Shown here: positions 1,460 through 18,852 of the stretch, one piece after another | Numbering within the stretch: the stretch's first letter is position 1 | Layout: each line of letters begins with the position of its first letter | DNA from: Anaerolineae bacterium | Lineage (GTDB): Bacteria > Chloroflexota > Anaerolineae > S016-19 | Assembly: GCA_027016315.1 (NCBI GenBank) | Contig: JALWAP010000102.1 | Coordinates: forward strand, 1-34,815 | Length of the DNA: 34,815 nt | Direction: 5' to 3' | Translations under genes and position numbers: made by a program | Notes under the pieces: model-generated | Seen by the model: the letters and a program-made list of their open reading frames with translations, nothing else | Database searches by the model: none | What the model was told of the DNA's origin: nothing

Positions 1460-3463
1460 TTACCTGGTGCCTTTCTTCGTCAATTCCATGACTTTGTCGA
1501 CGTTGTCCTTGGTGACGAAACCAGGGCCGGTCATGATGACTTTGTTGGTGACCATGTGACCGGTCGTCGCGTACAGCTTCAGGAAGACGATCGGCAGGTA
1601 GCCCTGCAGGTACTGCTGCTGATCGATGGCGAAGAGCATGTTGCCGTCCTTGATGGCCTGCAGAACTTCAGGCGAGAGGTCGAAGGTAGCCAGCTTGACC
1701 TTGCCGATATAGCCTTCTTCCTTCAGCGCCTGGATGGTGGGGATTGCACCAGCAGGCCCCAGCGTCAGGATGCTGTCGATGGAAGGATCGGACTTCAGCT
1801 TGGCGATCACACGCTGCTTCGTCTCGGTCGGGTTGGAGACGTCCACCGCCAGCACGTCTACCTTGCCGCCAGCTTTCTTCATCGCATCGGCGAAGCCTTT
1901 GCATCGCTGATCCAGCGCCGTGTTGCCGACCTCGTGGTTCACGCACAAGCCATGCTTGGCTCCTGCAGCAGCCAGCTTCTCGCCCCCGCCGTAGCCAGCT
2001 TCGTACTCCGTCTGGCCGACATGGGTCATCACGCCGAGCTTTGGCGCTGCTTCGTAGCCGGAGTTGATGGAGATCACCGGGATGCCAGCCTCGACAGCGG
2101 CTTTGATCGACTTGCCGAGGGCGTCTGGATCGGGGATGGACACTACAAGGCCATCGGGCTTGGAGGCGACCGCAGCATCGATCAGGTGGGACATGGCAAC
2201 CATGTCGAAGGTGTCCGGGGCCTGATATTCGGCGGTCACTTTCATGTCCTTGGCTGCAGCATCGACGCCCCTCTTGACCACCGACCAGAATGGATCGGCT
2301 GCCTGCCCGTGGGTCACCACGACGAACCGAAGCCCGCTCTTCTTGAAGCCTTTGGCCTCTTTCGCAAGAGATTCCTTGGTGACGAAGCCAGGGCCGGTCA
2401 TGATGACTTTGTTGGCGACCGTGTTGCCGTTTGTGTTGTAGAGGTAGAGCAGAACGATCGGCAGATAGCCCTGCAGGTACTGCTGCTGATCGATGGCGAA
2501 GAGCATCTCGCCGTTCTTGATGGCGTCCTTGATCTCAGGCGAAACGTCGAAGGTAGCCATCTTGATCTTGCCGATGTAGCCTTCCTCCTTCAGCGCCTGC
2601 AGCGTAGGAATGGCTCCTGCAGGCCCCAGCGTCAGGATGCTGTCGATAGAAGGATCGGACTTCAGCTTGGCGATCACACGCTGCTTCGTCTCGGTCGGGT
2701 TGGAGACGTCCACCGCCAGCACGTCCACCTTGCCGCCAGCTTTCTTCATCGCATCGGCGAAGCCCTTGCAGCGTTGATCCAGCGCCGTGTTGCCGACCTC
2801 GTGGTTCACGCACAAGCCATGCTTGGCTCCTGCAGCAGCCAGCTTCTCACCGCCGCCGTAGCCAGCCTCGTACTCCGTCTGGCCGACGTGGGTCATCACG
2901 CCGAGCTTTGGCGCTGCTTCGTAGCCGGAATTGATGGAGATCACCGGAATTCCGGCGGCCACAGCGGCTTTGATCGACTTACCGAGGGCGTCCGGATCCG
3001 GGATGGACACCACAAGGCCATCGGGCTTGGAAGCGACCGCAGCATCGATCAGGTGGGACATGGCGACCATGTCGAAAGTGTCTGGGGCCTGATACTGCGC
3101 CGTGACGCCCAGGTCTTTGGCCGCATCGTCCACCCCTTTCTTCACAACCGACCAGAATGGATCAGCCGCCTGCCCGTGGGTCACCACGACGAACCGAAGC
3201 TTCTTGGCGGCCGGAGCCTTGGTCGGCTTGGGTGCCGGGGTGGCCGTGGGTTTGGGCGGTTTGGTCGGGGCCTTGGTGGGCTTGGGCGCCTTGGTTGGTG
3301 CAGGCGCTTTAGTCGGAGCTGGCGCTTTCGTGGCCGGAGCCTGCGTTGGTGCAGGCGCCTTGGTCGGAGCAGACGTCGGGGTCGCCTTAGGGCCACAAGC
3401 GGCAAGCACCATGGAGACGACGAGCAACAATGCGAACAACGTGTAGTACTTCTTTGACATCAT
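1460..3463 (-). CDS. Lipoprotein sugar-binding protein with two tandem type-1 binding domains
   Basis: Extracellular lipoprotein that captures the substrate for the ABC importer. Residues 1-23 are a lipoprotein signal ending in LAAC (lipidated Cys23). Residues 24-86 are an Ala/Pro/Thr/Lys-rich stalk. Two periplasmic-binding-protein domains of the Peripla_BP_4 type follow at about 88-376 and 377-667, repeating every 289 residues (867 bp). In the central 164 residues the two copies differ at one position, while both flanks are clearly diverged. Usual family members have one domain of roughly 300 residues. AGGAGGG lies just upstream; a second ATG at 3460 is slightly better spaced. Ligand identity is inferred from the operon. 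A long open frame on the opposite strand follows from codon bias. Confidence 0.93.
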
Positions 3464-9865: not shown

Positions 9866-9895
9866 TTGACACTGATACGCAAATAGCTGTAGAAT
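9866..9895 (+). promoter_or_regulatory. Promoter directed into the cassette array (Pc-like)
   Basis: TTGACA (9866-9871), 18 bases, TAGAAT (9890-9895). It has the same form as the efp promoter (TTGACG-N18-TAGAAT). It points toward the first cassette, about 180 bases ahead of the cassette boundary, as a cassette promoter would. The stem-loop at 9914-9934 lies between them and could attenuate it. Confidence 0.72.
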
Positions 9896-9913
9896 TAGAG
9901 CAAATCGAAAAAT

Positions 9914-9934
9914 CCCCGCCGGTGGAAGGCGGGG
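9914..9934. terminator. Stem-loop after the membrane-protein cluster
   Basis: CCCCGCC and GGCGGGG pair around a 7-base loop. A short A-run precedes it (GAAAAAT) and TTCGAT follows. It is a plausible weak terminator for the upstream genes, or an attenuator in the leader of the promoter at 9866-9895. Confidence 0.5.
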
Positions 9935-10024
9935 TTCGATCAGGGTGAAATCGATACCCCGGAAAGGGGCAAGAGTACACATGAACTTAGGATCAAGTTA
10001 GCTCGGCTTTATTTCGGATCGGTA

Positions 10025-10072
10025 CCGGATAACGCACCGATGGGGGATGTTATCCGGACTCTCTCCGGATAA
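10025..10072. promoter_or_regulatory. Three CCGGATAA half-sites forming two mutually exclusive hairpins
   Basis: CCGGATAAC (10025-10033) pairs with GTTATCCGG (10049-10057) over 9 bp. The same central copy can instead pair with CCGGATAA (10065-10072) over 8 bp with a 7-base loop. It lies 7 bases before the first cassette boundary. It may be an operator, an attenuator, or part of an attI-like site. Confidence 0.6.
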
Positions 10073-10078
10073 GTAATG

Positions 10079-10085
10079 GTTGGGC
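10079..10085 (+). other. First cassette boundary (GTTGGGC core; attI-like side)
   Basis: GTTGGGC is the exact reverse complement of GCCCAAC, which opens attC1 at 11042. The sequence before it (CTCTCCGGATAAGTAATG) does not resemble the attC right arms, so this looks like an attI-type or other non-attC junction. That is inference. Confidence 0.65.
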
Positions 10086-10128
10086 AATCTCTTTTGTTTC
10101 GCGTTTGAGACCAGTAGAAGGAGTAGCG

Positions 10129-11109
10129 ATGGTTGAGGTAAAAGAAAGTGGAAAGAGAATCAGGCAATTTTTTAACGCAGAAGCAAATGCTTTATTGAAC
10201 GCATATTTGCACATTCAAACACTGTTGCCTGCCCAGCACACGGGAGGTTCTTCCCACCATCCTGAGGAAGGCCGTCATATTGAGAGCTTATTGCGTTCTT
10301 TCTTGAATCGCCATCTTCCGCGACAACTGCGGGCATTCTCAGGATTTATCTTGCGACCAGCGACAAAAACGAATCTCCATAACAGAAGGCGATTGAGGGA
10401 AGGAGATTTGCACTCATCTCAGTTAGATATAATTGTATTTGATGTGATAAATTATCCTATATATGAGCATTTTGAAGAATTCGTAATCGTTCCCCCTGAG
10501 GGGGCTATCGCTATAGTTTCTGTGAAAAAGAAATTGTATAGAAGCCACATAAGTCAGGAAATAAAGCAATTAGCATCAGCCGCTGCTTTGTGTGGACATA
10601 CCAAAAGCGGAAAACCAAATGTGTGGGTACGAGGGCCGAGCTTGGTGTTATGGGCGTTCTCGTCAGGCGATCTACCAAAGGCAGATGACGATGTTGTTTC
10701 ATATTTTATGAAAGAGTTAGAAAGTTACGCTAGTTGTCCTTTTGACCAATTGATCAACCAAATTACCATTTTAGATAGACTTACCTTATTTAAAGCGCGC
10801 CCTTCTCCTCCTACAGAAAAGGTAACAACCGCAAAATATGTTTGGGGTAAGCATCCTGTAGATAGCGATAGCATCAACCGTGGCTTGCAAACGCTTTTAA
10901 CTAACATCTTGAGTGTTTTTTATGATGAGACACGTTCAACAAAATCACGGCCAGGATTTACAAGCTTCCCGCCACGGGAATCGCTCTCATCAGCTGGTGA
11001 AATATCTGTTAAGGGTTTGCGAGTGACTCACCCCAAGTTGTGCCCAACCCAGCGTGCAGCGGACACGGCTTCGCCGTGGGGCAACGTTGGCGGTTTGAAG
11101 GCGGAGTAG
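10129..11109 (+). CDS. Cassette 1: DUF6602-like protein, possible PD-(D/E)XK nuclease fold
   Basis: 326 residues. The order E52 (HIESLLRSFL), the SGFI strand, SQLDIIVFD with D100, then EGAIAIVSVKKKL with K133 resembles DUF6602 proteins, which I believe share a restriction-endonuclease-like core. The usual Glu before V-K appears to be Ser131 here, so catalysis is doubtful. I choose the ATG at 10129 because AGAAGGAG lies 5 bases upstream; a TTG at 10105 is the longer alternative. The frame runs through the attC core at 11042, so the last 20 or so residues are encoded by the recombination site. Codon use is more A+T-rich than in the flanking genes, fitting acquisition. A defence role is only suggested. 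Confidence 0.8.
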   Translation: MVEVKESGKRIRQFFNAEANALLNAYLHIQTLLPAQHTGGSSHHPEEGRHIESLLRSFLNRHLPRQLRAFSGFILRPATKTNLHNRRRLREGDLHSSQLDIIVFDVINYPIYEHFEEFVIVPPEGAIAIVSVKKKLYRSHISQEIKQLASAAALCGHTKSGKPNVWVRGPSLVLWAFSSGDLPKADDDVVSYFMKELESYASCPFDQLINQITILDRLTLFKARPSPPTEKVTTAKYVWGKHPVDSDSINRGLQTLLTNILSVFYDETRSTKSRPGFTSFPPRESLSSAGEISVKGLRVTHPKLCPTQRAADTASPWGNVGGLKAE

Positions 11110-11165
11110 CGTCGCCAACAATGCTTCTGGGAAAACACGCCGTGCCGCTGACGCTATCGTTAGCC
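11042..11165 (+). other. attC1 recombination site
   Basis: 124 bp from GCCCAAC to GTTAGCC. The left arm AGCGTGCAGCGGACAC pairs with the right arm GTGCCGCTGACGCT (reverse complement AGCGTCAGCGGCAC), leaving two unpaired extra bases (G and A) on one arm. This matches the extrahelical bases of folded attC sites. The inner part can also pair (GTTGGCG with CGCCAAC). Confidence 0.82.
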
Positions 11166-11190
11166 CAGGAAGCTTTTGGGGGTTAGCACT

Positions 11191-12762
11191 ATGGGAGACC
11201 ATCAAGTTTTTACTTTCGCTAAAAAAATAAAGGGGGATCAGGTCACGTCCAAAACTCTGAGTGATATCCGTGATATCAACAAACTTTACGAGATTGTTGA
11301 TAAATTGGAGCATTTACCCAGAGTGGCAACAGTGCCATTGCAGGATCTGGGATTGCGGAGAAACCCTCGCAAATGGGTAGAAAAGCTATTGTCAGATTAC
11401 CCCCATATCTTAAACTCGGATATGGAGAATCTTCTCTTCGATTTTACGGATAGCATGAGAACAAGAATGAGGGAAGATACCAAATACGTATTAGGTGTAC
11501 TGTTTGAAGATAAGTTACTATTATGCCATAGTATTTATGGAGAAGAGACTGTCACTCCAGAATGGAAAATTATTCCGCGAATGCTCGATGCTGACAATAT
11601 ACTGCGTTTCGTGTGTTTTGAAAAAATACAAGGGGATTACCAAGTGAAGTACTGGGAGAGAGATGCAACAAGTTCTTTTGTAGAATGGCTTGGTCTTCCT
11701 CAAAAGCAGGCTTTTTTGTTTGGGGGACGCTATAGAATGTTAAGCGAAATCGAAGGGGTAGTCGCTGAATTTCAGCTAACTGAGGAAGAGGTAAATGAGT
11801 GGTTGGAAAAGCATCCGGAGATAGAAAAAGGCTATCTCAATCTAAGCACTCCTGTTCAAATGTTGACCATCAAAGAGGTGAGAGTTGCAGGCAAACGATA
11901 TGACGCTGTGGTAGATTTTATTCAAGACTTTCAGGCTGCAAAACATGGTCTTCCTTTTTATCAGAAGAGGTATGCCCAGCTAAAGAAAGAGCAACTTCCT
12001 CTCTTTGTGCGTTTTTATGATGAGAAGACGCAGGTTGTAAGGTGGGAAGGAGAGGACGAAGTTGTGGAACTGTATAAGGAACAGGTTAGTTTTGATATAC
12101 TTTTCGCTGATGATGTAATTGAAATGAGAGGGAGCTACCTTCAAGACGTTACGCGAAGATGTATTAATGGTGAGCCAGTGAAAATAGTACATGTGGGTGA
12201 GAAGTTTAGAATGCATCCGATAAAATTAGGAAGCATAGAAATCTATAACGAAATCCGGAAGCCACAAATTATAGAGTATCTCGCTCATTATTTTGAAGGA
12301 GAGTCCTTGCGAGATAGGAAAATAGCTTTACTGGTCAAATTGCTTTTTCTTGAAGTCTTGGTAAAAGCGAATACTGAAAGTCCGTTGTCCTTTGCTCTTC
12401 GCAGGATTGCGAACAACCTTCGCAAGGAAATATCTTTAGATGGTCGGTTTATGCAAACAGAAGATCATTTTGTAGAATACAAATCGCGAGATTACTTTGC
12501 GGGTCGCGATAGCGAGATAGTGGAGCGTTTGATTGAAGATATCGAGCACAAAGTTAAAGAAACTTCTTATAAGCTTTATCTGATTGGTGTGGAAGATAAT
12601 GGAAGCGTTAAGCCTCTTTCTGCATCTCGACTAAAGAGCGATCGAGTAGAAAGTATTCGAAAAAGAGTCGCTGAGGCGTTGCCCCACTTGAGTTTTGCCT
12701 TTTTCCCCATTGTTGCTGATGGGGAGGGGATCCTTTTACTCACTGTGGAACCAAAGAGGTAG
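11191..12762 (+). CDS. Cassette 2: AlbA/Schlafen-like putative nucleic-acid-binding protein
   Basis: 523 residues. The C-terminal 100 residues look like a divergent AlbA_2 (Schlafen-type) domain: E429-Y-K431 in FVEYKSRDYF, then LYLIGVEDNGSVKPL and a terminal GILLLTVEPKR. The first 400 residues are not recognised; they are charged, without membrane segments, and read like several mixed alpha/beta domains. I use the ATG at 11191, with GGGGGT 7 bases upstream; a TTG at 11176 is possible. The stop codon falls one base before the attC2 core, the usual tight cassette packing. The gene is A+T-rich compared with ligA or manC. Schlafen-type domains occur in regulators and in phage-defence proteins, but the role here is unknown. 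Confidence 0.8.
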   Translation: MGDHQVFTFAKKIKGDQVTSKTLSDIRDINKLYEIVDKLEHLPRVATVPLQDLGLRRNPRKWVEKLLSDYPHILNSDMENLLFDFTDSMRTRMREDTKYVLGVLFEDKLLLCHSIYGEETVTPEWKIIPRMLDADNILRFVCFEKIQGDYQVKYWERDATSSFVEWLGLPQKQAFLFGGRYRMLSEIEGVVAEFQLTEEEVNEWLEKHPEIEKGYLNLSTPVQMLTIKEVRVAGKRYDAVVDFIQDFQAAKHGLPFYQKRYAQLKKEQLPLFVRFYDEKTQVVRWEGEDEVVELYKEQVSFDILFADDVIEMRGSYLQDVTRRCINGEPVKIVHVGEKFRMHPIKLGSIEIYNEIRKPQIIEYLAHYFEGESLRDRKIALLVKLLFLEVLVKANTESPLSFALRRIANNLRKEISLDGRFMQTEDHFVEYKSRDYFAGRDSEIVERLIEDIEHKVKETSYKLYLIGVEDNGSVKPLSASRLKSDRVESIRKRVAEALPHLSFAFFPIVADGEGILLLTVEPKR

Positions 12763-12763
12763 G

Positions 12764-12887
12764 GGCTAACCCTGCGTGCAGCGGACGCCGTCTCACCGTC
12801 GGGCAACGTTGGTGGTTTAAAGGCAGAGTAGCGTCGCCAGCGGTGGTTCTGGACAAACACGCCGTGTCGCGGACGCCCTCGTTGGGC
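12764..12887 (+). other. attC2 recombination site
   Basis: 124 bp from GGCTAAC to GTTGGGC. GGCTAAC is the exact reverse complement of the cassette-2 starting core GTTAGCC at 11159. Left arm CCTGCGTGCAGCGG and right arm GTGTCGCGGACGCCCTC retain the GCGT pairing, while the inner box has diverged. Confidence 0.82.
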
Positions 12888-13019
12888 GACTTGCTTTTGA
12901 AATTGTAGTGCCGCACTTACGCGTTTGGGATAGTCTTGGAGCAGACGCGACTTTGGGATGAACTTGTGCGTTGTGATCGAGTAAGTAGGTTCCCGATATT
13001 ATCCTGGGAAGCGATGGGA

Positions 13020-13571
13020 ATGAGCATAGACAGAGAAACTCTTTTAGTTTTGTATGGGTATGTTCTTGATGAAGAACGTTTTTTCGCTAAAGAGCATCAG
13101 GATCGCGTTTCCTTCTATTCGGGTTTTATTACCACAATCATAGCAGCCATAGTAGTTGGATCTTTGCAAGCTTCAACCTGGTATCATTTCGCCATCTTGT
13201 GTGTGGGGCCGCTGGTTCTGTTTCTTATTGCTCAAAATGCAGTTGAAGGATGCTATCGTTCGTACGTGCGCTTTCTTGAAGCAATTACTTATCGAGCAAA
13301 GATTGAGCAGAACTTAGGCTTGACTCGAGAGCCCTTGAAAAAAGAAGAGGCTAAAAGAGGAGGCGAACCGTATTGGGAAAATGAGCCACTAGTTCCTTCC
13401 CGTCATCTTCTAAATCGGAGAAAATATGCTACCTCAGAAGAATTTATTCGGCGAGCCTCACAAGGTGGTTATCATAGAGTAGTCGTACGATTATTCCGTA
13501 CTGTTCAGGGATTGAGTGTGTTGATGTTTGTTGGGCTTGCGGGAATGGCAGTGTGGCTGGCGTTGCAGTAA
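13020..13571 (+). CDS. Cassette 3: small membrane protein (SLATT-like layout)
   Basis: 183 residues from the chosen ATG. A charged N-terminus (YVLDEERFFAKEHQDR) precedes two adjacent membrane segments (FITTIIAAIVVGSL and FAILCVGPLVLFLIA), then an acidic/basic cytoplasmic stretch of about 90 residues, then a final segment (GLSVLMFVGLAGMAVWLAL). The paired segments followed by a helical cytoplasmic part recall SLATT-type effectors, but this is by layout only. Start choice is uncertain: GGGAAG lies 8 bases before 13020; an ATG at 13014 and a TTG at 12936 (27 codons longer) are alternatives. It lies between attC2 and attC3 and is A+T-rich. Confidence 0.72.
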   Translation: MSIDRETLLVLYGYVLDEERFFAKEHQDRVSFYSGFITTIIAAIVVGSLQASTWYHFAILCVGPLVLFLIAQNAVEGCYRSYVRFLEAITYRAKIEQNLGLTREPLKKEEAKRGGEPYWENEPLVPSRHLLNRRKYATSEEFIRRASQGGYHRVVVRLFRTVQGLSVLMFVGLAGMAVWLALQ

Positions 13572-13593
13572 TTACGTGGTAAGAATAGGGTGT

Positions 13594-13724
13594 GACCAAT
13601 CCTGCGTGCAGCGGCCACGGCTCGCCCAAGAAGAGCCGTTGGGGATGGTTAGGCAAAAAATCCTTTGCCTGCTGTGGTCGTAGACGTGGACAGCGACACC
13701 GTGCCGCTGATGCCATCGTTGGGC
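13594..13724 (+). other. attC3 recombination site
   Basis: 131 bp from GACCAAT (degenerate core, two mismatches to the expected GCCCAAC) to GTTGGGC. Left arm GCGTGCAGCGGCCAC pairs with right arm GTGCCGCTGATGC (reverse complement GCATCAGCGGCAC), with two extra bases on the left arm. Confidence 0.78.
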
Positions 13725-13753
13725 GGGGTCTCGGGGCATGCTAAAACGAAGTC

Positions 13754-14197
13754 ATGAAGATCTATCTGGACGTTTGTGCAATTCAAAGGCCGTTGGATAC
13801 GCCAAGTCATTTGCGTATTGCCATCGAGGCTGAAGCGATTTTGGGCATCCTTGCGCTATGCGAGCGCGGCCAAATAGAAATTGTGTCGTCGGATGCGTTG
13901 GTTTATGAAGTGAGGCGCAATCCTCATCCTGTTCGTCGGGAATACGCTTTGGCTGTGCTGGCCTTGGCTAAAGAGCATCTGGTAATCTCGAAAGATGTGG
14001 AGGATCGAGCAAACTCTCTGGTAGAACGGGAGGGATTCAAGCCCCTGGATGCCTTGCATTTAGCGTTTGCGGAGAAAGGGAAGGTGGAGTATTTTTGCAG
14101 TAGCGATGATAAACTTTTGAAAAGAGCAAGGCGTACAAAGGATTTAGCGGTCAAAGTGGTGACGCCAGTGGAGCTGGCGGAGGAGTTGGAAAGATGA
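13754..14197 (+). CDS. Cassette 4: PIN-domain toxin (VapC-like ribonuclease)
   Basis: 147-residue PIN domain, a probable metal-dependent endoribonuclease. The acidic positions expected of the fold are present: D6 in KIYLDVCAIQRPLD, E52 in LVYEVRRN, D99 in KPLDALHLAFAE and D118/D119 in FCSSDDKLL. It lies 30 bases after the attC3 core and overlaps the following small gene by ATGA. Toxin first, partner second, is an order found in some PIN modules. The ribosome site is weak (AACGAAG). Toxin-antitoxin cassettes are frequent in chromosomal integrons, where they are thought to stabilise the array. Confidence 0.87.
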   Translation: MKIYLDVCAIQRPLDTPSHLRIAIEAEAILGILALCERGQIEIVSSDALVYEVRRNPHPVRREYALAVLALAKEHLVISKDVEDRANSLVEREGFKPLDALHLAFAEKGKVEYFCSSDDKLLKRARRTKDLAVKVVTPVELAEELER

Positions 14198-14415
14198 GTG
14201 TTTACGCTGAACCATTAGTAGAGATCAATCGTAAAGCCTTTTTGGTGCTTTATCGGGAGTTAGGGGTTGTGGATGCAGTGCGCTTTTTGCGGCAGTTTAC
14301 TACGGGATTCGGAGAATACGCCGAAGAGCGCGAGGCTTTGTTCGGTGGAAAGAGCTTGGCGGAAATCGTGGATGAAATAAAGCGAGAAAGCGATAGCGGC
14401 AGCGAAAGTCGATGA
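14194..14415 (+). CDS. Cassette 4: small partner of the PIN toxin, likely antitoxin
   Basis: 73 residues, overlapping the toxin stop by four bases (ATGA). The sequence contains FLVLYRELGVVDAVRFLRQF and EEREALFGGKSLAEIVDEI, a helical pattern that I associate with small proteins encoded next to PIN genes. No classic AbrB, MetJ/Arc or Phd domain is evident. The antitoxin role is inferred from size, charge and coupling. The ORF ends 28 bases before the attC4 core. Confidence 0.78.
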   Translation: MSVYAEPLVEINRKAFLVLYRELGVVDAVRFLRQFTTGFGEYAEEREALFGGKSLAEIVDEIKRESDSGSESR

Positions 14416-14443
14416 GAAGCGCCTAAGATGCATGGCATACCCC

Positions 14444-14546
14444 TCCCAGCCCCGCGTGCAAAGGACATGGCTTCATCCTGGGGCGCCGGTGGTGGTTTTG
14501 AGGCGAGGGAGCGTCGCCAGCCGTGCCGCTAGTACAATCGTTAGCT
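14444..14546 (+). other. attC4 recombination site (degenerate)
   Basis: 103 bp from TCCCAGC (two mismatches to the expected GCCCAAC) to GTTAGCT. The right arm GTGCCGCTAGTACAATC still resembles the others; the left arm CCGCGTGCAAAGGAC has lost part of its pairing. GCGTCGCCAGCCGTG inside matches the internal part of attC1 and attC2. Confidence 0.7.
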
Positions 14547-14589
14547 CCGTGAGGTCCGTGCACTACATTGAAAACTGTGGTGAGCGAAA

Positions 14590-15213
14590 GTGTCGAAAGT
14601 TAAATACCAGGCTGCAATGTTCGACCTGTTGACAGCTCTCCTGGATTCCTGGTCCCTTTGGAGCAAGGTGGCAGGATCTGAGCAGGCTGGCCTAAACTGG
14701 AGAATTGCGTACCTGAAGTTGACTTATCAGGCAGGGCAATACCGCCCCTATGAAGAGATCATCAGGGAAGCCGCGGAAGATGCAGGGATACCTGCTGAAC
14801 TGGCAGACGAACTCATACGGCGTTGGAATGAGGTCGAACCGTGGCCTGAAACGAAACGAGTTTTACAGGAACTGATCGAGAGAGTACCGGTTGCGGTGGT
14901 GACCAATTCGTCGATTGCGTTAGCCGAGGTTGCGGTTTCACGCATCGGAATACCGATCCCTATAGTCATAACGGCGGAAGAGGCTGGATACTACAAGCCA
15001 GATCCGCGGCCATACCGAATGGCTTTGGAAAGGCTTCGGTGTAAGGCGGAGCACGTTCTCTATGTTGCAGGCTCTCCCTCAGATATTCCCGGAGCATCGG
15101 GGGTTGGCATGCCTGTCTTCTGGCACAATCGAATGAATCTGAAGCCTTTGCCTTCGAGTGCTAAGCCCAGGTACGTATCAGACACTTTATTGCCATTACT
15201 CGATATCGTGTAG
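14590..15213 (+). CDS. Cassette 5: HAD-superfamily hydrolase-like protein
   Basis: 207 residues. The probable nucleophile D12 is in AMFDLLTALLDSW; motif II is VVTNSS; the motif III lysine is in YYKPDPRPYRMAL; the motif IV region is VAGSPSDIPGASGVGM. The second Asp of the DxD phosphatase motif is Leu14, so this is closer to the 2-haloacid-dehalogenase layout, and phosphatase activity is uncertain. The end WHNR resembles small-cap HAD proteins. The GTG start at 14590 lies 44 bases after the attC4 core. Base composition is closer to the chromosome than that of cassettes 1-3. Confidence 0.82.
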   Translation: MSKVKYQAAMFDLLTALLDSWSLWSKVAGSEQAGLNWRIAYLKLTYQAGQYRPYEEIIREAAEDAGIPAELADELIRRWNEVEPWPETKRVLQELIERVPVAVVTNSSIALAEVAVSRIGIPIPIVITAEEAGYYKPDPRPYRMALERLRCKAEHVLYVAGSPSDIPGASGVGMPVFWHNRMNLKPLPSSAKPRYVSDTLLPLLDIV

Positions 15214-15248
15214 GAGGCGTGGAAAGGCTCTGTGAGGAAGGGAGAACG

Positions 15249-15395
15249 ATGATACGAAAGAAATACAGCGAAGGCCAGGTAGCCCAGATTTTGGAGGCAG
15301 TGTAATCTGGAGTGCCTGTGACATAGCTATCTCGGACGTGTGGATTCAGCCAGAGTGCATTTTACCGATGGAGAGCGAAGTACAGCGGGGTGGAT
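15249..15395 (+). pseudogene. Relic of an IS3-type transposase orfA (HTH_Tnp_1)
   Basis: Reading from the ATG, the frame gives MIRKKYSEGQVAQILEAV, a TAA, SGVPVT, a TAG, then LSRTCGFSQSAFYRWRAKYS. Without the two stops this is the helix-turn-helix start of an IS3-family OrfA (compare the family pattern SGVPV..LCRKYGIS..TFYRWRAKYGG). No orfB and no clear inverted ends are visible. It sits in cassette 5 and appears to have replaced the left half of attC5. Confidence 0.72.
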
Positions 15396-15420
15396 GGTGG
15401 ATGTGGTGGATGTGCAGTCA

Positions 15421-15444
15421 CTGTCGCTGACGCCCTCGTTGGGG
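15421..15444 (+). other. attC5 right half-site
   Basis: CTGTCGCTGACGCCCTC followed by GTTGGGG. The 17-mer aligns with the right arms at 11142, 12864, 13701 and 14523. A left half in the expected form is missing; AGCTATC at 15325 is one mismatch from the expected AGCTAAC, but it lies inside the IS3 relic and may be chance. A further core, GTTAGGT, occurs at 15448-15454. Confidence 0.6.
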
Positions 15445-15461
15445 CTGGTTAGGTGCATCGT

Positions 15462-17973: not shown

Positions 17974-18852
17974 ATGTTTTTTGGGGGAGGCGACAAAGTT
18001 GCCATCGAGATCGATCCTGGTCAGGGGCCATTTTATCCCGGCAGTCCGTTGAACGTCTCCATCACCTTGCGATCGAAGAAAAAAGTCAAAGTAAGCGAGG
18101 TCAGGGCGGTGTTGCTCTTTCACGAGCAGTATCGGTACAAGGCCGTGGAGGAGGACGATGACGGCGATCGACAGACCAGGGTCTACACAGCGCACAAGGA
18201 TTGGGAGGTTCACAAGGACTTGTTGATGGGCGGGGAGACCATTCCGGGAGGCTTCGAACAGACCTACCAGTTGGATTGGAAAATCCCGGAAGACGCTCAG
18301 CCCCCGTATTCTGGAAAGGTGATCCAGGCCAAGTGGCTGATAAAGGTCACGCTCGATCGCAAACTGCGCAAGGATATCAACAAAGAGATCGAGCTTCCTA
18401 TCATCGTGCCGCCGCCGGGAACGCACGGCGGAGCGGGAGAATACGGCCATGCCAGCCATTCCGACAAAGCCGATATGCAATTGTGGCTCCCGAGGGTGGA
18501 GTGGGTGGAAGGCGAGACGATAGAAGGCAAGCTGAAGATCTACGCACACGACAACATATCTTGCAACCATGTACGCATCGAGCTGACCCGGAAGGAAGAA
18601 GTTTTCCGCGAAAACGGCAACGTTTTTACCGTCACCGAGTTCAAGGAACGCATTTCGGGCGGTGTGAAGCTCAGGTCCGGAGAGACCAGCGAGATACCTT
18701 TCTCCATTGCCATCCCCAAGAAAGGATGCCCAACCCTTGATACGCCCGTCGGACGGGTGACCTGGACGCTCAAGGGGATCATGAGCAGGCGGCTACGGAA
18801 GGACTTCACGGTTACCCAGGAAATCTTCGTTTACAACGGCTCAAAGGCATGA
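17974..18852 (+). CDS. Arrestin-fold protein (Spo0M/arrestin-like)
   Basis: 292 residues without signal or membrane segments. Two beta-sandwich halves are visible: about 5-150 (VAIEIDPGQGPFYPGS, VSEVRAVLLFHEQYRYK, IQAKWLIKVTLDR) and about 165-292 (WVEGETIEGKLKIYA, HVRIELTRKEEVF, FSIAIPKKGCPTLD, VTWTLKGI). This is the layout of arrestin N- and C-domains, as in bacterial Spo0M. It is probably an adaptor or scaffold rather than an enzyme. The start is firm: AAGGAGGT 4 bases before the ATG. It is followed by the bidirectional terminator at 18905. Confidence 0.8.
   Translation: MFFGGGDKVAIEIDPGQGPFYPGSPLNVSITLRSKKKVKVSEVRAVLLFHEQYRYKAVEEDDDGDRQTRVYTAHKDWEVHKDLLMGGETIPGGFEQTYQLDWKIPEDAQPPYSGKVIQAKWLIKVTLDRKLRKDINKEIELPIIVPPPGTHGGAGEYGHASHSDKADMQLWLPRVEWVEGETIEGKLKIYAHDNISCNHVRIELTRKEEVFRENGNVFTVTEFKERISGGVKLRSGETSEIPFSIAIPKKGCPTLDTPVGRVTWTLKGIMSRRLRKDFTVTQEIFVYNGSKA

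Follow-up and report, generated by a model that had tools for sequence, protein, structure and literature searches.

The region at positions 9866-10085 probably constitutes a Pc promoter with its attI site, belonging to an integron whose integrase gene was lost, a reading to which we assign a probability of approximately 0.8 on the basis of sequence comparison. The region lies in a stretch of 34,815 nucleotides, referred to here as the window, which is a whole contig of the 2.45-Mb MAG G000 (contig C102; 306 contigs in total, 92% complete). According to this reading, a pair of IntI molecules would have bound the double-stranded core, in which CCGGATAA serves as the L box together with the R box. 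The element TTATCCGG-N7-CCGGATAA and the half-sites upstream of it would have provided additional IntI sites, with a role resembling that of DR1 and DR2 of attI1 but in inverted orientation and in steps of approximately 41 bases. The now-missing IntI would have cut at the core and inserted cassettes there, Pc would transcribe the first cassettes, and the array would now be fixed unless an integrase arrives from elsewhere.

Layout of the leader

The first-pass annotation had proposed a TTGACA-N18-TAGAAT promoter facing the array and a GC stem-loop between this promoter and the first core. Both elements were present (Table 1), and the -35 start of the promoter is located 213 bases from the core. 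The results support a sigma-70-type promoter facing the array and a Pc assignment for it. The GC stem had no counterpart in the other five aligned leaders. The proposed half-sites and their two mutually exclusive pairings were confirmed, with inverted 9-nt arms matching exactly in both pairings (10025/10049 and 10050/10064), whereas the spacing had to be corrected, the last CCGGATAA ending 6 bases before GTTGGGC and not 7. A fourth half-site, the degenerate TATTTCGG, was missing from the original list and is situated N7 before the site at 10025.

Table 1. Coordinates of the leader elements and gene cassettes in the window.
Feature	Position	Strand	Remarks
Candidate Pc promoter	9866-9895	+	TTGACA 9866-9871, N18, TAGAAT 9890-9895; 11/12 consensus bases; directed into the array
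GC stem-loop	9914-9934	.	CCCCGCC (9914-9920)-ggtggaa-GGCGGGG (9928-9934); terminator-like on the minus strand only
Accessory inverted pair	10010-10032	+	Degenerate left half-site TATTTCGG 10010-10017, N7, CCGGATAA 10025-10032; putative binding site
Inverted half-site TTATCCGG	10050-10057	+	N7 upstream of the L box; putative binding site
Putative attI L box CCGGATAA	10065-10072	+	Class-wide core-anchored motif; register partly common with attC L' arms
attI/cassette 1 core GTTGGGC	10079-10085	+	Expected cut 10079/10080; GTTRRRY consensus; complement GCCCAAC at 11042
Cassette 1	10080-11159	+	DUF6602/PD-DExK nuclease-like gene, ORF 10105-11109, ATG 10129 after GAAGGAG; attC1 11042-11165
Cassette 2	11160-12881	+	528-aa ORF 11176-12762 without Pfam match; attC2 12764-12887
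Cassette 3	12882-13718	+	211-aa ORF 12936-13571; attC3, R'' imperfect
Cassette 4	13719-14540	+	PIN-domain gene 13754-14197 and small ORF 14194-14415; attC4, R'' imperfect
Cassette 5	14541-15438	+	HAD-hydrolase gene 14590-15213; attC recognizable by right arm alone, approximately 15407-15445

Promoter and attI motif upstream of intI genes

We analyzed the regions flanking 90 intI loci of the class, comprising 30 examined loci and 60 further listed matches, with partial and end-of-contig matches mostly left out. The promoter count used 87 of these loci, three with less than 110 bp upstream having been dropped. An array-directed promoter matching the consensus at no fewer than 10 of 12 positions was identified upstream of 40 of the 87 intI genes (1.4 expected from dinucleotide shuffles; 15 on the opposite strand), and 47 of the 87 had none at 10/12. 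At 11/12 or better, 22 array-directed promoters were counted, versus 3 on the opposite strand.

The motif count began with 85 loci, after the removal of five with less than 150 bp, and was reduced to 84 by one locus without a candidate core. A core-anchored motif was seeded from ten window-like sites and then run on the intI-flanking regions. The motif, (T)CCGnnTAA-N6-G^TTRRRY, scored at least 15 bits in 49 of the 84 regions, whereas eight shuffled sets gave 0-6 each and the reverse strand gave 0; 35 regions lacked it at 15 bits. At 20 bits or more it was found in 38 of 84, and the shuffled sets and the reverse strand yielded none. The conserved pre-core positions among the 49 sites were C-14 (40), G-12 (37), T-9 (35), A-8 (45), A-7 (39), T-2 (38), and A-1 (39), at which the window carries C, G, T, A, A, T, and G, respectively. 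Because 49 of the 84 intI regions have a common core-anchored motif, CCGGATAA is best read as an attI L box. This finding supports CCGGATAA as the box that an IntI monomer would contact.

Part of this register is also found in attC sites. The attC L' arms at eight cassette ends of G000 and its relative G001 carried C-14 (6), C-13 (8), G-12 (8), A-8 (7), and T-2 (8), but at positions -9, -7, and -1 they did not follow the attI motif. The earlier description of the pre-core sequence as unlike the attC right arms was thus correct for positions -9, -7, and -1, but not for -14, -12, -8, and -2, which are mostly common with the local attC L' arms. With an R box at the start of cassette 1, an L box, and homology to intI-adjacent sites, the site in the window appears to be an attI site.

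Homologous leaders and remnants of intI

Of 60 genomes searched with the leader DNA, three gave matches, namely G000 itself, G001 (two places), and G017; G001 was the sole same-genus relative of G000 among the 60. The matches outside the window were confined to the last 70 or so bases of the leader, and the window leader was 47%-53% identical overall to other leaders, from which it departs except in Pc and in the final 75 bases. The related leaders carried a promoter in the same position as the window Pc. By sequence similarity, the segment 10010-10085 has homologues among the leaders of the same genus and of other genera of the class, and at a second place in G000.

Comparison with regions next to intI genes, which the first-pass annotation had suggested, revealed homologous leaders beside intI or its stubs. 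The leader on contig C156 of G017 adjoins an integron-integrase ORF (model positions 1-279 of 315; 363 bits) that is divergent from the array. This ORF (L030:918-2132) passes into other sequence after model position 279/315, and its C-terminal part is missing. The leader on contig C110 of G001 adjoins a 240-nt 5' intI remnant (89% identical) and is itself followed by a cassette with attC, and 5' intI remnants also stand beside the leaders of G057 and G064. In the stubs of G001 C110 (L031), G057 C424 (L044), and G064 C203 (L036), only the N-terminal 40-80 residues are left, adjoining attI. It is as if erosion spared the Pc-attI side of intI in different lineages, although the cases are few. No intI remnant was recognizable beside the leader of the window itself. 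Together with the Pc-type promoter found at the same place across the class, the homology to sites beside an integrase gene or 5' stub supports the earlier assignment of the region as Pc and attI.

A search with the C110 leader matched 8 of 396 genomes of the class and revealed a second leader in G000, on contig C143. This second Pc-attI platform (C143:26568-26769; L027:6568-6769) has cassettes and directly follows ileS, with approximately 35 nt of intI left (83%). The C110 leader likewise follows the 3' end of ileS, as judged by flanking-sequence similarity. Because both leaders follow ileS, the ileS integron is probably older than the split of the G000 and G001 species, and both species appear to have lost most of its intI (35 nt left in G000, 240 nt in G001). 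The window leader is one of two platforms in G000.

The first-pass annotation had regarded conservation of the leader at places lacking cassettes as evidence against its assignment. No such case was seen. In six leaders (window, C143, C110, C335, C136 of G017, and G264), we identified a first cassette with a matching R'' or attC; for leaders beyond these six, the contig was short or the check gave no result.

Cassette array

Five cassettes follow the leader, each terminated by a core at the end position listed in Table 1. Cassette 1 opens with GTTGGGC and attC1 with its complement; cassette 2 opens with GTTAGCC and attC2 with GGCTAAC. The R'' arms of cassettes 3-5 were imperfect or unrecognizable. 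Because the boundary of cassette 1 was confirmed by R'/R'' complementarity, the insertion point was placed at 10079/10080. The bottom-strand fold of attC1 displayed R''/R' and L''/L' pairing with extrahelical bases (z = -2.0). In three other attC sites, the arms were recognizable, although the minimum-energy fold did not take the form with R''/R' and L''/L' pairing. The array is a CALIN, that is, at least two attC sites with no nearby integron integrase: five cores with right arms were found (11159-15438), and attC1 and attC2 have matching R''/R' arms.

The product of the cassette 1 gene matched PD-DExK and NucC nuclease profiles weakly, and a defence-system scan of the cassette proteins yielded weak nuclease and PIN matches and nothing more. 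The PIN gene overlaps the small ORF of the same cassette (13754-14415), possibly forming a toxin-antitoxin cassette. Directly before the truncated last attC, at 15240-15400, is a broken transposase-like frame, which by eye we take to be of the IS3 type. Matches to the attC right arm were also observed on other contigs (G000:C139:9708-9728 and G001:C417). Elsewhere in the window, at 1460-3463, a predicted 667-aa lipoprotein-like ORF consists of two near-identical halves that by eye resemble sugar-binding proteins.

Distribution and constraint of the inverted half-sites

Leaders of the window's clade carry an inverted partner of the L box at N7, and the resulting pairs recur every 41 bases or so. 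The C110 and C156 leaders contain three inverted pairs each, and the G064 leader contains four, with a different half-site (TTAGACGG/CCGTCTAA). The palindrome TTAKMCGG-N7-CCGKMTAA occurred at 20 places in 11 genomes that had been picked for having leaders; all 20 were in attI-like leaders, the one in G117, with an irregular core, being the least sure, and the control yielded 0. The longer pattern TTAKMCGG-N7-CCGKMTAA-N6-GTTRRRY, which was built from such sites, occurred at 7 places distributed over 6 of the 396 class genomes, including the window (reversed-pattern control, 0); two of the seven, both in G057, are identical on two small contigs and may represent one locus.

A scan for the palindrome plus core at the first 30 intI loci returned three weak matches, and the palindrome is therefore not a class-wide feature. 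Among 57 sites scoring at least 12 with enough sequence, five had at least 7 of 8 pairs at N7. Pairing of arms from one site hardly exceeded that of arms from different sites (z = 1.4 at N7 and 2.9 at N8), and G-U pairs were not enriched. Because class-wide arm pairing is weak, inverted partners are considered clade-limited, and an RNA hairpin receives little support. Inverted partners are restricted to some clades and are not a universal accessory site.

Over the last 75 columns of the alignment, the window matches the consensus of the five other leaders in 29 of the 32 half-site columns but in 22 of the 40 remaining ones (Fisher p = 0.0008), a comparison of few columns among six related leaders. 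Such retention would be expected if integrase binding is, or once was, under selection. The inverted partners are best regarded as additional sites for the integrase and not as hairpins in RNA.

Loss of the integrase versus action in trans

The first-pass annotation had noted that the integrase was absent from its usual place and suggested that it was lost or acts in trans. The absence was borne out: no integron integrase exceeded the TIGR02249 cut-off in G000, window included (best match, 41 bits), or in G001 (97% estimated completeness), although MAG incompleteness could hide intI. No intI stands next to the window attI, as it would in a complete integron. G143 likewise had no integron integrase over the cut-off, and in the G017 copy the C-terminal portion of the model has no match.

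Of the two suggestions, loss is favoured. The other would have the lineage keep several integrase-less Pc-attI docking sites as live platforms, on which an integrase located elsewhere, on a plasmid or an unbinned contig, acts in trans. The half-sites were kept while the surrounding sequence diverged, four related MAGs (G000, G001, G017, and G143) have two leaders each and no full-length integron integrase, and integrase-less arrays are described as mobilizable in trans (PMC12444791). Nevertheless, the congener at 97% estimated completeness is also without an integrase, and the constraint on the half-sites could predate the loss of the gene; we thus regard action in trans as unlikely but worth retaining. 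Equally tentative is the notion that inverted half-site arrays load an in-trans integrase onto the docking site, such that the integron would be a distributed system and not one locus.

Other interpretations of the leader

The palindromes might instead be operators bound by a general regulator, for instance LexA, for which a palindromic target at the promoter of the integrase gene is described in many integrons (PMC8876359). However, the confinement of all 20 palindromes to attI-like leaders, with none near other genes in the 11 leader-chosen genomes, and the fixed distance of the last palindrome from the recombination core make this explanation improbable.

The first-pass annotation had interpreted the half-sites as alternative hairpins, and it is conceivable that they form mutually exclusive structures in the Pc transcript and control the first cassette in the manner of an attenuator or riboswitch. 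The two exact 9-nt pairings agree with such a leader, and the fold of the C143 leader is far more stable than those of its shuffles (z = -7.3). By contrast, z was -1.7 for the window at 10015-10100 and -2.1 for the C110 leader; the fold of 9902-10045, which holds the GC stem, was modest (z = -2.5). Moreover, the arm-pairing and G-U results given above argue against RNA pairing, no Rfam family covered the leader, the window yielding a tmRNA and two tRNAs only when scanned at gathering scores, and a riboswitch proposed for class 1 attI has since been rejected, as described in PMC8876359 and PMC9410878. A riboswitch or attenuator, as defined by conserved alternative RNA pairing, was not borne out by the pairing, G-U, fold, and Rfam tests. 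We consider RNA control highly improbable and prefer to interpret the elements as half-sites that an integrase would bind in double-stranded DNA.

It is hardly tenable that cassettes were inserted by chance at a non-classical genomic site (attG) that happened to follow an unrelated promoter: such insertions have been described (PMC12444791, PMC12901181), and the homologue of the left-flank gene in G001 stands in another context, followed by other genes and without leader or cassettes, but promoter, half-sites, and core are conserved jointly in other leaders, some of them beside intI or its remnants. No homologue of the right-flank gene (17974-18849) was found in G001, hence no empty site was demonstrated.

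Comparison with known integrons

The putative attI site in the window resembles attI1 of class 1 integrons in having an L box ahead of the R box GTTRRRY, upstream accessory sites for the integrase, and an upstream Pc that reads into the array, as described in PMC8946536, PMC12901181, and PMC8876359. The L box is CCGGATAA here but CCCTAAA in attI1 (PMC12901181, PMC4792948). The accessory half-sites form inverted pairs in steps of approximately 41 bases, whereas those of attI1 are the direct repeats DR1 and DR2 (PMC8946536). Pc is positioned here at the start of intI or just outside it, compared with inside the gene for attI1, and in the window no intI is present. The attIA site of the Vibrio cholerae chromosomal integron is, like the site in the window, that of a sedentary chromosomal integron, but it is described as having no repeated accessory sites (PMC8946536).

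Loss of intI and CALINs are well known (PMC2426708, PMC3607928, PMC12444791). The window is similar to a CALIN in possessing an attC array without intI, and intI loss is described for Xanthomonas and Treponema phagedenis (PMC12444791, PMC3607928). In contrast to a CALIN, the window keeps a recognizable Pc and attI. The Treponema study did not follow attI because of its lower conservation (PMC3607928). In the open-access literature, mostly judged by title or the start of the abstract, we found no description of attI structure in this class. The attI motif for the class, the inverted accessory half-sites within an attI, and the presence of several integrase-less Pc-attI platforms per genome, each predicted here by comparative analysis, therefore appear to be new.

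These findings show how a docking site is constructed in a large and little-studied bacterial group. A measurable attI motif for the class would render attI detectable without intI, and some CALINs would thereby become recognizable platforms. The clade with inverted half-sites may supply natural variants for binding and recombination tests.
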